A stretch of DNA of 64,000 bases from Methanococcus maripaludis C5 (GTDB taxonomy: Archaea > AGJL01 > Methanococci > Methanococcales > Methanococcaceae), in NCBI RefSeq assembly GCF_000016125.1, contig NC_009135.1, positions 1,674,001 through 1,738,000 on the forward strand, given 5' to 3'. The translations under genes and the position numbers were made by a program. The notes beneath the pieces are model-generated. The model searched no databases. It was given only the letters and a program-made list of their open reading frames with translations, and was not told where the DNA came from. Shown here piece by piece: positions 51,436 through 56,194 of this stretch; positions within the stretch are counted from its first letter, which is position 1, and each line of letters starts with the position of its first letter.

Positions 51436-51699
51436 AATATAAATTTCATTGCCTGTTATGGGGAACATTTTACATATATTAATATATATTAATATTCGGA
51501 ATTTCCGAATTAATGTTTAAAATCTTTTATTTTTTTATGGTATTTAAAAACGATAAGTTAAAAATAATGGTTATTTTGGGGTAAATTCAAAATGAAACAA
51601 GTACGTGGCTACGGGTGGAATGTAGGACTTTGCCTATATACGTTTTGAACTTATGATCTAATTTGGATCGAAAAAATAGTAAATGGGTTACTGCTGTCA

Positions 51700-51981
51700 G
51701 TCAATGAACCCCAACTTTATCCCAATATGCAAGATTATTGATTTTTAGGTTGCCGCAGTTTTCCGATTCGGCACGCAACAGGGAGCATAAATTTTATTGC
51801 AATTATAATATCCAATGCAAAAACAGGTTTTTTTTCATCGGGGATCAAAAATAGCGAAATCATAAGTTTCGACATGTTTTCGAAGTTTGATAATCTCAGC
51901 ACATCTTTTATCGTTGATTTCTTTAATCAATTGCACAATAGCAAGTCTTCTTTCAAAATCTGTTTTTTCAATTGCTTTCAC
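51700..51981 (-). pseudogene. Transposase-like relic 1 (N-terminal fragment and internal scrap)
   Basis: From a GTG at 51981 a 48-codon frame reads KAIEKTDFERRLAIVQLIKE and continues with a helical DNA-binding-like segment to a TGA at 51835. The reading then shifts (DEKKPVFALDIIIAIKF) and a later piece at about 51700-51745 reads KINNLAYWDKVGVH. That last piece resembles IKNHCIWDKIEK in relic 2, which links the two. An IS630-like transposase origin is inferred from relic 2. Clearly not functional. Confidence 0.35.
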
Positions 51982-52071
51982 TATTAAGTTTTCTTATAAC
52001 TTATATTTACAAAATGATCATTTTTAAAGTCTAGTTGTGAATTTAAAGATTAATAACTGAACAATTCCCAA

Positions 52072-52210
52072 AAATATAAATATTAAATTTACAAATGTGT
52101 CTTAAGTCCTGTTTTGAATTTATTGGATTATTGTGGACCTTAAAGCTGAAAACTTTTAAAATCTACATTCAACCCCATTTTTTAGCAGGACTGACGTTTT
52201 CAGCTTTTTT
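52072..52210 (+). ncRNA. Candidate pseudoknot small RNA, copy A (with its TATA box)
   Basis: TATA-like AAATATAAATAT at 52072-52083 predicts a start near 52103. Stem a: AGTCCTGTT (52105-52113) pairs with 52184-52192, including one G-U. Stem b: AAAGCTGAAAAC (52142-52153) pairs with GTTTTCAGCTTT (52196-52207). The order a, b, a', b' is that of a pseudoknot. The loop holds GGATTATTGTGGAC, identical in copy B. The element ends in CAGCTTTTTT, an oligo-T typical of archaeal termination. Start and end are predictions, not mapped. Confidence 0.5.
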
Positions 52211-52442
52211 AACAATTAATAAAACGATGTGTCGATTTTGCGTCATATTCAATTTTCAAATATTTGATCATTTTATCGAGGTTATAACCTCTTTAAAACC
52301 TTTATTTTCAACACTGAAACACTTTAGATCTAATTTCGATCTAAATCTCAAGATATCTTTAATATTAAAATGCCCAGATTAACAAATAAATCGATATATG
52401 ATTTTAAATGTTGATTTGGTGCCATAATTTTCCATATTTCCG

Positions 52443-52568
52443 AAAAATATAAATATGAAATCCACATATGTGGTTTTAGTCCTGTTTAGCATTATCGGAT
52501 TATTGTGGACTTCGAAGCTGAAAATATGAAAATATTCTCCCCAAACAGGACTAATATTTTCAGCTTTT
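52443..52568 (+). ncRNA. Candidate pseudoknot small RNA, copy B (with its TATA box)
   Basis: TATA-like AAAAATATAAATAT at 52443-52456 predicts a start near 52477. Stem a: 52477-52487 (TAGTCCTGTTT) pairs perfectly with 52543-52553. Stem b: 52515-52527 (AAGCTGAAAATAT) pairs perfectly with 52554-52566, with no spacer between a' and b', so the two helices could stack. Compared with copy A, one pair of stem b changes from C-G to T-A with pairing kept. The loop motif GGATTATTGTGGAC is unchanged. A palindrome CCACATATGTGG (52462-52473) sits between TATA box and start. The tail is CAGCTTTTC. Confidence 0.55.
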
Positions 52569-52589
52569 CTGAAATGCTTTTTTAAAATT

Positions 52590-52873
52590 TTACACGTTCA
52601 ATACATTACAAGCACTGTTTTCTAAAAGCTCTTTAAGATCTTTTAACGAGTATATTTCTTTTGGAACATTCATTTTATTTTTAAGAGGAATTTCGATCTC
52701 AAATCTCAAAAATCTCGATTTTTATCGGGCCCCGAATAAACGTTTAATTTTTCTATTTTATCCCAAATGCAATGATTTTTTATAGTTTCAAGCAAAGAAG
52801 TATGGTGGCGAGAAATCGCTATATTGTCCACAACAATTCGATAAATTCAGGAATTTATCGTCACAATTTTCAT
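52590..52873 (-). pseudogene. Transposase-like relic 2 (IS630-like C-terminal part)
   Basis: Minus-strand translation gives RIVVDNIAISRHHTSLLETI, then KNHCIWDKIEKLNVYSGPDKN, then after a one-frame shift EIEIPLKNKMNVPKEIYSL and KDLKELLENSACNVLNV with a TAA at 52590. The succession VVDN..H, then a (V)YS.PD.N block about 35 residues later, resembles the second Asp and the YSPDLNPIE region of IS630/Tc1-type DDE transposases. At least one frameshift, one internal stop and a damaged PIE motif make it a pseudogene. The family assignment rests on motif resemblance only. Confidence 0.4.
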
Positions 52874-52968
52874 TAAGTTTTTATCTCTTTTTTTCTATTT
52901 TATCCCAAACCTAATTACTTTTTATAATCCCGATTACAGAATATATATTGGCGAGAAATCGTCAAGCA
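52748..52968. repeat. Two degenerate direct repeats, ~80 bp, 141 bp apart
   Basis: 52748-52827 and 52889-52968 share TTTTTCTATTTTATCCCAAA near the left end and GGCGAGAAATCG near the right end, with a variable middle. On the minus strand both read into an AISR(H/Q)...WDKIEK segment, so the second copy is another scrap of the relic 2 transposase. A weaker third copy (CTTTATCCCAATATGCAAG) lies near 51715. Confidence 0.5.
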
Positions 52969-53162
52969 CTCTTCATAATGGCCCATATACTACCCTCGTA
53001 TAAAGTAGTTAAAATAAACCCAATAAGTGTGTGAAATTACGATTTTTTTCTAAAAATTTCTTTTTTTGATAATTTTAATCATTTTATACGTATTTGTTGT
53101 AACTTTTTCGATCTTTACACGACCGAAAATGGCTTATATGCAAATTTTCAAAATTTGTATTA

Positions 53163-53182
53163 CCTGAGAATTATTTCTCAGG
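53163..53182 (+). other. Perfect hairpin CCTGAGAA-TTAT-TTCTCAGG
   Basis: Eight base pairs with a four-base loop, extendable by TA/TA with one bulged G. TATTTGGGGGATTATAAGTGG follows at 53184, which resembles the conserved loop region of the two hairpins at 53219 and 53288. Confidence 0.5.
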
Positions 53183-53218
53183 GTATTTGGGGGATTATAA
53201 GTGGCAGTGGTTTCAATA

Positions 53219-53332
53219 TTTGGGACTGTTTATTTAGAGGGGATTTAAATGGTCCTTAAAGTTTATTTTTTTAATGGGTTTCATACCTTTAGAACAGTTC
53301 AATTTTTGAGGGGATTTTGGATCTGTTCTGAA
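53219..53332 (+). ncRNA. Pair of homologous hairpins with shared GAGGGGATTT loop
   Basis: Hairpin 1: 53219-53232 pairs with 53246-53260 (one bulge, three G-U). Hairpin 2: TTTAGAACAG at 53288-53297 pairs with CTGTTCTGAA at 53323-53332 (one G-U). The stems differ in sequence but both pair, while the apical GAGGGGATTT (53237-53246 and 53308-53317) is identical. The G-U pairs only work on the plus strand, so this is the likely RNA strand. No convincing TATA box is directly upstream. A T6 run follows hairpin 2 at 53341-53346. Confidence 0.4.
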
Positions 53333-53407
53333 AATTTAACTTTTTTAAGTTTTAAAATCCAATTTAGTGAATATACTAAATTAAAGGCACAAAAACCTAC
53401 ACAAATC

Positions 53408-53495
53408 AAATATATATTTTAAAAACCACTTTTTTATTAAGTCCCGAATGTCCAGATGGATCAGATGTTATAGGTTCAAGTTTCTGGATTTCGGG
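53408..53495 (+). ncRNA. Candidate small RNA: TATA box plus two-part stem-loop
   Basis: A TATA box AATATATATT at 53408-53417 predicts a start near 53440. There CCCGAA (53443-53448) and TCCAGA (53451-53456) pair with TTCGGG (53490-53495) and TCTGGA (53483-53488), two 6-bp helices separated by a small internal loop and closed by a 26-base loop. Single copy, so no covariation support. Confidence 0.3.
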
Positions 53496-54068
53496 TTGCA
53501 TGACCTCAATTTACATTTTCAGAGTTACGTTAAATTTGTGCCATTTAATGTATCAAATAAACCTGAAACAACAGATCATTACCTCGAATACTCAAAATAC
53601 CACTTTTTTTAAAATGCCGTATTACTTCTGTCCTAATTTCGCAGATCGGGGCAGAATTTTGAATTTTTTAAACAGATGATTCACTTCTAAAACTCTAGCA
53701 ATGCCCGTATGCATTAGAATATGTCACCCTCAATGCTCTTTTATACTGTATTCACATTTCATTTTCAAAATTTCTTTTTTATTTTTCCACAATTGAACCC
53801 TTAAATCATTGTTTAGACATCTTCATGAATAAAAACGTATTCAAGAGATTTTTCGTTTTCAATCATGTAATTTTCGCATTGCGGACAGATAAAGTACATT
53901 TCAAGAGTGCCAGAAAGTATTTTGCAAAATTATTTATTAAAAGATTAAATTATTATATTTTTATTTACAGATGTGTATACATATGAATTTATTAAATTGG
54001 CCAAAGCAGGATTTAAATTAATTACTAGATATGCCACACACTGAAATTTAGATTAAAAGAGGGATATT

Positions 54069-54671
54069 TTGGATGATAAATTAAATGATCTAAAAATCGA
54101 ACGCGACGACTATAAAAAAGTACTATATCGGTATTTAATACTTCTTTCGATCGGAATTAACATTGTTGGAGCACATTTGGTGCTTTTTTTAAATTTACCT
54201 GCTTATTTGGATAGTGTGGGAACAATTCTCGCCGCAATTTTGATGGGGCCAATAATTGGGGCAATTGTAGGTCTTGCAACACATTTTGGTTTAGGGGTAA
54301 TCCTGGGGCCGGTTTATTTCCATTTTGCAATTGTAAATGGATTAATTGGACTTATTACGGGTTACATATTTGATAAATACCCCTTTAATTTAAAAACAGT
54401 TCTTGTAGCATCTGTCATTATTTCATTAATGGCTTCACTAATGGGGAATACCATAAGTTACATTGTATTTTCGGGAATTACTGGTGAATCAGTTGATATT
54501 TTAACAGAACATCTGTTAGAACTTGGTTTTAACTTGTTTACTGCTGTATACATATCGGGATTTTTCTCAAATTTCTTGGATAAATTGATTTCATTTGCAA
54601 TAGTGTTTTATGTAATAGTACTACTATGCGATAAATTCAAACTAAAAGAATTTGAAATATGTAGAAAATAA
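54069..54671 (+). CDS. ECF transporter S-component-like membrane protein
   Basis: 200 residues from a TTG at 54069 after GAGGGAT. A charged N-terminus (about 1-18) is followed by about five to six membrane segments. NLPAYLDSVGTILAAILMGP (about 44-63) and IGAIVGLATHFG are typical of substrate-binding S components of energy-coupling factor transporters. No ECF A or T gene is adjacent, so it would share a distant module or act alone. Substrate unknown. A broken paralogue lies at 55593. Confidence 0.7.
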   Translation: MDDKLNDLKIERDDYKKVLYRYLILLSIGINIVGAHLVLFLNLPAYLDSVGTILAAILMGPIIGAIVGLATHFGLGVILGPVYFHFAIVNGLIGLITGYIFDKYPFNLKTVLVASVIISLMASLMGNTISYIVFSGITGESVDILTEHLLELGFNLFTAVYISGFFSNFLDKLISFAIVFYVIVLLCDKFKLKEFEICRK

Positions 54672-55592
54672 TTTTAAAATACTATTTTTAAATTTTAATT
54701 GAAAAAAGGGTTTTTATGTCACCCAGGGTAAAAGTGATATGAATTCACTGCTTTTCACGTGAGGGTATGTAAAAAGTGTCATGTAGTTATTCATATTGGG
54801 GTAAACTTTTTTTGAGGATTAGTAAAATTCATTATCGTTTGGATTATTGGGGACATAAAAACATTATTGATATAGGGCATAAATAATATATAAAATATCA
54901 TAATTTAATCGGAAACATAATGTATAAATAATGAGCAAAGTCGTTTCGCTTAAATGTCAGTAAATAATTCAAAAGGAATATAATTACATATAATCCTTTA
55001 ATTTTGAAAATTACTCTTTTTAAAATGATTAACGGGTAAGTGTCTTAAGATATGTATATTAGATTTTTGGATCGCCCCATTTCTAAAATTTTAATTAAAA
55101 ACATATTAGTATCGATCAGCGATAAAATAAATAGGGGACGTTTTTCCCCATAAATCCTGAACAGACTATTCAAAATAGGGGGTAGTTTATGGATTTAATG
55201 TCGATTTTACATTTAATTAGGGGTAATTAAATTATTTTCGACAAAATTTTATTTGGGGGAGTTATTTCTCCCAGATATCTCCCTCGCAAATATTGTTACA
55301 TACATAACCATCTACATAATTATTTGCGTAAATATCAGTCTATTTTAATCGGATGATTAAAAAAATTCTTATTTTAAAATGTTTTCACAGAGCAATGAAA
55401 ATTACTCTTTTTAAATATTTAATAAAATCCACAATTAAACCTTTAAATTATATATACGATTTTAACATAGTGGTATGCATTTGATTTTAACATAGGGATC
55501 CGGGAATTTACAACATTTATATTTTTAAAATTGTGAACAGTTACATTATTCATATCTCTGAAACAAACAATGCTACTCAAGGAGGGATATTT
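54672..55592. other. Gene-free interval between ECF-S-like gene and its broken paralogue
   Basis: About 920 bases with no open frame of note. Contents: hairpin GGGGA-cgtttt-TCCCC near 55133-55149; a nested hairpin with TGTCGA/TCGACA (55199-55204, 55238-55243) enclosing TTTAATTA-GGGG-TAATTAAA (55212-55231); GGGAG-ttattt-CTCCC near 55258-55273; two copies of GAAAATTACTCTTTTTAAA (55006-55024, 55397-55415); two copies of GATTTTAACATAG (55458-55470, 55483-55495) next to a TATA box. At 54828-54856 a short sequence recalls the loop motif of the pseudoknot elements. Confidence 0.5.
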
Positions 55593-56194
55593 TTGGACGG
55601 TAGATCGAAGGAGTTACAAAAAGACCGTGAAAACTATAAAAAAGTACTTTATCAGCATTTAATAATTCTTTCTATCTGCATCAACATAATTGGGGTGGAG
55701 TTAGTTCCCATTTTGAATATTCCTACATTTTTAAATGCAGTTGGAACTATTTTTGCAGGGATATTATTGGGCCCATTTGCGGGTGCACTGGTGGGACTTT
55801 TAACAAGTATTATTCTAGGTTTTTTTATAGATCCAGGATATTTTTATTTTACATTTGTCAGCGTAATGGTTGGATTTATTACAGGATATATTTTTAAAGA
55901 ATATCCTTTTAACATAAAAACGGTTATCGGTGCATCGATCTTTATTTCGGTAATAACTGCAATTGTCGGAAATACGATAAGTTATATGGCGCTTGGAGGC
56001 GTTGCTGGAGAACAAATTGATAAAGTAACTCAAATTTTAATTGAGAGGGATTTAACACATTCTTTGCAGTAAATATCACAGGATTTTTTGCAAATTTGTT
56101 TGATAAACTACTTTCATTTGTTTTGGTGTTTTTAGTAATTATAATAATGGATAAAAAAATAGATATGCAGGATTTTCAGATAAGGTGGAAATAA
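55593..56194 (+). pseudogene. ECF S-component-like gene broken by a 2-base frameshift
   Basis: Begins with a TTG at 55593 after GGAGGGAT, exactly like its paralogue at 54069, and reads MDGRSKELQKDRENYKKVL then the NIPTFLNAVGTIFAGILLGP membrane region. The frame ends early at 56072. Removing one AC from the ACAC at about 56054-56058 restores a frame that continues TFFAVNITGFFANLFDKLLS and ends at 56194, colinear and equal in length with the paralogue. So the break is a 2-base insertion. It could be a real mutation, slippage or a sequencing error. Confidence 0.75.

Follow-up and report, generated by a model that had tools for sequence, protein, structure and literature searches.

To our knowledge, few archaeal small RNAs have a known target. 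Type III toxin-antitoxin RNAs (ToxI) are pseudoknotted small RNAs that sometimes come with tandem repeats, and the plasmid antisense control RNAs (RNA I, CopA), which are encoded on mobile replicons, set an antisense loop against the hairpin loop of a target leader. In Methanosarcina mazei, sRNA162 was described to mask a ribosome-binding site via an unstructured stretch and to possess two targeting domains (PMC3510493). With respect to mobile DNA, Badel et al. list a remnant of the archaeal pT26-2 plasmid family in Methanococcus maripaludis C5, and the part of their study drawn on here reports no conserved ori sequence among the elements (PMC6972569). Here, we analysed a stretch of 64,000 nucleotides of M. 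maripaludis C5 (contig NC_009135.1, positions 1,674,001 to 1,738,000; called the window for simplicity). The C5 genome consists of a chromosome of 1,780,761 bases and a plasmid of 8,285 bases (NC_001811.1). The window contains two members of a previously undescribed family of small-RNA genes that often reside on mobile DNA. Judged by base complementarity, these twins probably switch off chemotaxis sensors via the ribosome-binding sites of MCP (methyl-accepting chemotaxis protein) mRNAs.

A first-pass annotation had proposed twin pseudoknot-type RNA genes at 52072-52210 (copy A) and 52443-52568 (copy B), and all features it ascribed to them are present in the sequence (Table 1). The pairing order a-b-a'-b' is seen in both copies as well as in the entire family (10/10 copies), the loop motif GGATTATTGTGGAC is exact in A and B, both end in oligo-T, and a C-G pair of stem b is indeed changed to T-A between the two. 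Helix lengths of 9+12 bp (A) and 11+13 bp (B) hold, given that base 52554 can be claimed by both helices of copy B. Two details had to be adjusted: the U-G pair of copy A is real, but a G-U pair is likewise found at the outer end of stem b in copy B, and the spacing of about 26 bases between TATA box and first stem applies to the centre of the box, since its start lies 30 nt upstream of stem a. An operator-like palindrome (CCACATATGTGG) at the start of copy B was discarded, as the other copies do not conserve it.

Table 1. Features of the two RNA gene copies and of their surroundings (window coordinates).
Feature	Position	Strand	Remarks
Copy A, TATA box TATAAATA	52075..52082	+	sequence; A-rich BRE-like bases in front
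Copy A, stem a, 5' strand	52105..52114	+	partner 52183-52192
Copy A, loop 1, putative guide TATTGGATTATTGTGG	52121..52136	+	family-conserved; antisense to MCP leader, -21.5 kcal/mol, rank 1/136 leaders
Copy A, stem b, 5' strand	52142..52153	+	partner 52196-52207
Copy A, loop 2, includes CATTCAACCCC	52154..52182	+	motif ATTCAACCCC again in E and H
Copy A, 3' strands a' and b'	52183..52207	+	followed by oligo-T
Copy B, TATA box	52448..52455	+	spacing to stem a constant across the family
Copy B, stem a, 5' strand	52476..52487	+	partner 52543-52554
Copy B, loop 1, putative guide TATCGGATTATTGTGG	52493..52508	+	best MCP leader -23.0 kcal/mol; 0/300 shuffled guides as good
Copy B, stem b, 5' strand	52515..52527	+	partner 52554-52566
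Copy B, 3' strands a' and b', directly adjacent	52543..52566	+	followed by oligo-T
Noncoding region homologous to element noncoding regions at C1:910 kb and C1:1227 kb	51976..53671	+	element genes absent
Site complementary to loop 1 of A and B, GTCCACAACAATTCGATAA	52826..52844	+	duplex -28.5 (A) and -23.6 (B) kcal/mol
Hairpin CGATAAATTC-AG-GAATTTATCG overlapping the 52826-52844 site	52839..52860	+	+ strand favoured by a wobble pair of the element-D homologue
GAAA-capped hairpin upstream of the 52826-52844 site	52806..52821	+	from sequence comparison with other element regions

Ten recognisable copies (A-J) make up the family, seven in M. maripaludis C5 and three in a second Methanococcus species (called G002 here). 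The predicted RNAs measure about 95-140 nt, except for that of copy H, which with its repeats reaches about 250 nt. Searching C5's own genome gave copies C (910 kb) and D (1227 kb), and copies E and F were found in G002 using the element noncoding region as query. A covariance model built from A-F recovered two distant copies, G from G002 and H from C5, both of which occupy the same chromosomal position between an MCP gene followed by a 162-aa gene and a MarR gene. Copy I lies directly downstream of another MCP gene; copy J and one decayed neighbour (C5) came from further loci. This decayed copy (C1:524541-524644, - strand) is next to intact J and has both stems broken. The seven C5 copies themselves lie at C1:1726104-1726210, 1726477-1726568, 910552-910657, 1227306-1227407, 1239334-1239590, 1489854-1489991 and 523932-524025. 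Copies A-F are within integrated-element DNA or remnants of it, and G, H and I are downstream of MCP (chemoreceptor) genes. The copies fall into three sequence subfamilies, whose stems read GTCCTGTTT with GCTGAAAA in subfamily 1 (A-F), GTTCCGTTA with GTTCTGGAAAA in subfamily 2 (G, H, I) and GGCCCTGTTT with ATTTAAAAT in copy J. A recognisable loop 1 is common to all ten; it reads TATTGGATTATTGTGGAC in subfamily 1 and CACCTATTGAATTATTGTGG in subfamily 2 (G, H).

The covariance-model search of Methanococcales suggested with the first-pass annotation thus yielded divergent relatives in which the stems are changed and the pairing is kept. In 36 Methanococcales genomes, two further covariance models failed to reveal additional clear copies, and loose matches in other Methanococcales (G027, G009, G004) were rejected as they had no convincing second helix or were coding-like. 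A 14-bp stem in G004 (C1:702621-702725; GGTCCTGTTTTAGT/ACTAAAACAGGACC) resembles stem a, comes without stem b and is perhaps a related or degenerate RNA. Phage and plasmid collections compared with the element noncoding region gave no match. Pattern scans of IMG/VR returned one chance match and 40 further loci unsupported by the covariance model; in a contig scan beyond Methanococcales the pattern was too loose, with unrelated bacteria among the matches listed, and a free pseudoknot descriptor was too unselective (background rate 170/3000).

In the alignment of ten copies (hand-fitted, N-padded and without the repeats of H, the hand-fitting being biased toward structure) 92.3% of the cells were paired, as compared to 33-55% when the partner strand was slid. 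Two-sided changes were observed in 16 of the 26 pairs and in 38 cells, with eight such pairs in each of both helices, and none of 500 shuffles was as good. The helices of each copy can be read directly in that copy's own sequence. Copies A-F alone exhibited weak covariation (one two-sided pair; 83/500 shuffles as good), so that the evidence available to the first-pass annotation was suggestive and not strong; the strong covariation stems from the divergent relatives and not from the close copies. The RNAs thereby show what defines an H-type pseudoknot, namely two crossing helices with compensatory change, and nested folding gave precedence to one helix over the other, as a pseudoknot predicts. 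A third helix (L1-L2), present in some folds, was rejected; it is not kept in B and D. The TATA box is located 27-30 nt before stem a in all ten copies, indicating a transcription start at about stem a, and oligo-T follows b' in subfamily 1 and is weaker in G-I. An independent promoter and terminator, as expected for a trans-acting antisense sRNA, were thus found. That we are dealing with a structured RNA family is near certain, and the earlier impression of a new archaeal family was confirmed by the strong compensatory change over ten copies, the constant TATA spacing and a search of Rfam 15 at gathering and relaxed thresholds, which gave no credible family match. We consider it extremely unlikely that the copies represent a DNA-level feature, i.e. 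an origin, a cruciform or the end of a non-autonomous transposable element: they are repeated and AT-rich, lie within mobile-element noncoding DNA and have neighbouring modules with dispersed relatives, but the pairs are preserved through two-sided changes, the wobble pairs (UG, GU) are mostly valid on the + strand only, the TATA box is at fixed spacing and loop 1 is constant while the stems change. Moreover, by eye no shared ends, terminal inverted repeats or target-site duplications were noticed.

Across 51976-53671, the homologous part of the window shows block-wise identity of 78-86% to the noncoding regions of the 910-kb and 1227-kb elements, and no convincing protein-coding ORF was found at 51436-54068. 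Since the window holds the noncoding region only, we regard it as the remnant of an integrated element. The 910-kb and 1227-kb elements encode a 707-aa Hel308-like helicase, the 1227-kb element additionally an ATPase matching a phage replication-initiation family, and an ArdC-type anti-restriction protein is encoded about 10 kb away. The earlier term "transposon-end derivative" found no support as worded, whereas a location of the window copies in the remnant of an integrated-element noncoding region did. Loss of the element genes from the window, together with the decayed copy elsewhere (C1:524541), would be in line with real RNA genes by descent whose window copies are silent remnants; this is very unlikely, as A and B retain an intact promoter, both stems, the putative guide and the terminator, and the longest helices of subfamily 1 are those of copy B. 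Further conserved modules are present in the element noncoding region (L010:5429-6653 and relatives), and one module (query 644-840) has about eight dispersed copies in G002 and several in C5 and ends in a Shine-Dalgarno-like GAGGGG plus ATG. Paralogous ECF-transporter-like membrane proteins adjoin the remnant (window 54069-54671 and 55533-56072), and a near-identical paralogue (L014:3627-4229) is encoded within 10 kb of copy D. The gene-free region of the C5 plasmid (L012:66-300) contains repeated ATCGAACATTTT units, both inverted and direct, and is possibly the plasmid origin.

A genome search with the loop 1 pattern (<=3 mismatches) gave few matches outside the RNA genes, and the best complementary match in C5 (2 mismatches) was an MCP gene leader ending in AGTAGGTGCTAATATG. 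The motif search in seven genomes returned a reverse-strand match in C5 at C1:1535733 that is not an RNA copy and corresponds to the leader of an MCP gene (ACCACAATAACCCAGTAGGTGCTAAT-ATG); the leader of a related MCP gene in G002 reads TTCCCACAATATCCAATAGGTGCTAAA-ATG. The MCP target was noticed only after searching, and duplex energies were read against leaders from sampled loci (136 in C5 and 59-62 in G002, start codons assigned by rule). In the RNAduplex ranking, that C5 MCP leader came 1st of 136 for guides A, D, H and I, and a second MCP took rank 2 for A, D and H. Guides G, E and F ranked the G002 MCP leader 1st of 62, often with other MCPs close behind, and MCP leaders occupied ranks 1, 2 and 3 of 62 for guide G. 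For eight guides in both species, the top partner among the sampled leaders was always an MCP leader (-21 to -29 kcal/mol). Only 0-3 of 300 dinucleotide-shuffled guides reached the observed energy of these eight guides, with one non-MCP C5 leader mislabelled "MCP" (due to the letters MCP in its protein) for real and shuffled guides alike; the names of the top matches were inspected for A, D, H, I, G, E and F. The RNAs thus possess an unpaired stretch complementary to a trans-encoded ribosome-binding site beyond chance, as expected for an antisense sRNA. The target motif CCACAATAN{0,2}CCARTAGGTG occurs in 2/36 Methanococcales genomes, namely the two RNA-carrying ones, and in five congeners without detected RNA the MCP leaders pair at best with -10 to -18 kcal/mol (rank test, p = 0.002). 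Window copies A and B have no CACC (the Shine-Dalgarno partner), and their loop ends just short of the Shine-Dalgarno sequence. In the predicted fold of the C5 target leader, the Shine-Dalgarno sequence is paired with GCACUA and ACCACAAUAACCC is exposed in a loop, which suggests loop-loop initiation of pairing. The best predicted C5 target gene (C1:1535758) carries an in-frame TGA at codon 117, indicating that the target mRNA in C5 may be decayed; its G002 relative is intact.

The regulatory function envisaged in the first-pass annotation thereby gained a specific candidate target, and the predicted targeting of MCP leaders is well supported. Conserved loops on variable stems would equally fit recognition by a protein, i.e. 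a structured RNA acting as chaperone, decoy or antitoxin-like RNA without antisense target. We judge this improbable, because it leaves unexplained the first ranks of MCP leaders in two species, the co-variation of guide and target and the multiplied Shine-Dalgarno-complementary repeat of copy H (see below). In addition, a toxin gene is absent next to the copies, which speaks against the RNA antitoxin-like element considered earlier.

Copies A and B pair with the site at 52826-52844 at least as strongly as with any MCP leader, which makes antisense control within the element the main rival reading. According to it, loop 1 would act on the element's own noncoding transcript and thereby regulate its copy number or replication, with the MCP match being secondary. 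Loop 1 of copy A reaches -28.5 kcal/mol with the window site and -33 kcal/mol with the element-D site, which is stronger than with MCP leaders, and RNA and site are located within a single noncoding region of helicase-carrying elements. Yet the site (<=3 mismatches) was found only in the window and in element D and not with copy C, nor was it seen with E or F, and subfamily 2 has no such region but keeps the same loop 1. Furthermore, the site resembles an MCP leader (GTCCTCATACTTCGATAATGTTAGG), as would fit a sponge. On balance, we hold element-internal control to be unlikely, and from its sequence the site could serve as sponge or as cis target. A second GAAA-capped hairpin is located at about 52948-52963, and wobble pairs in both GAAA-capped hairpins favour the + strand; similar hairpins are present downstream of the RNA in other element regions.

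Returning to the MCP leaders, the putative guide and its predicted target vary together between the two species. In C5 the leader reads CAGUAGGUG and loop 1 of copy H contains five CACCUACUG units plus one CACCUAUUG unit, and in G002 a leader reading CAAUAGGUG goes with CACCUAUUG in copy G; since the two species are related, the two guide-target pairs are not fully independent. Loop 1 of copy H contains a six-copy 21-nt tandem repeat (C1:1239414-1239538) that multiplies the Shine-Dalgarno-complementary unit. Loop 2 may harbour a second guide, a less secure proposal with a target in C5 only and no G002 counterpart: loop 2 of copy H holds UAUUCAACCCC, which over 11 nt is fully complementary to the ribosome-binding site of a further C5 MCP (AAGGGGUUGAAUACUAUG; target GGGGUUGAAUA), and, with weaker evidence, loop 2 of copy A is complementary to a second C5 MCP ribosome-binding site.

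Taken as a whole, the data are best explained by trans-acting antisense sRNAs that are spread by mobile elements and mask the Shine-Dalgarno region of MCP mRNAs, an interpretation we favour with slight confidence. Each copy would be a free-standing RNA gene with its own TATA promoter, whose transcript would start near the first base of stem a and run to the oligo-T behind b'. In the cell, the two stems would form an H-type pseudoknot, a scaffold holding loop 1 (and perhaps loop 2) single-stranded, and loop 1 would serve as antisense guide that binds the MCP mRNA leader. The subfamily 2 guide would cover the Shine-Dalgarno sequence AGGUG and that of subfamily 1, including the window copies, the bases just upstream, and pairing would block ribosome binding. 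By analogy with antisense biology and the precedent of sRNA162 (PMC3510493), transcription of the copies, loop-loop recognition, masking and finally repression would be expected. As the carriers of subfamily 1 are integrated mobile elements or their remnants, host chemotaxis would thereby be dampened, presumably to the benefit of the element. A more far-reaching version, in which element-borne guide RNAs on a pseudoknot scaffold silence host chemoreceptors with swappable and multipliable guides in both loops and a leader-like sponge site, is tentative and rather doubtful. If true, mobile DNA would manipulate archaeal taxis through RNA, and a pseudoknot presenting an antisense loop that is expandable into an array would be a new scaffold. 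The predicted target, the guide-target co-variation, tractable hosts and an RNA-free control species make the proposal quickly testable.

Among the known systems, the pT26-2 family likewise comprises integrated plasmid-like elements of Methanococcales, and no RNA of the present type is mentioned in the part of that study drawn on (PMC6972569). Unlike for ToxI, no ToxN-family toxin gene adjoins the window copies (51436-54068), and in copy H it is the putative guide within a loop that is repeated rather than the whole pseudoknot. In contrast to RNA I and CopA, the best-supported target is a trans-encoded host chemoreceptor mRNA and not the element's replication gene. With sRNA162 the family shares its occurrence in methanogens and the (here predicted) masking of a ribosome-binding site by base-pairing in an unstructured stretch (PMC3510493); a sequence relation between the two was not noticed, albeit without direct comparison. 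Whereas multicopy occurrence or carriage by mobile elements is not reported for sRNA162 in the portion of the source used here (PMC3510493), the C5 family exhibits both. Finally, sRNA162 uses a single-stranded linker and its 5' end to target a transcription-factor mRNA and a cis-encoded mRNA (PMC3510493), while the C5 family presents its putative guide in a loop of a pseudoknot scaffold and is predicted to address chemoreceptors.
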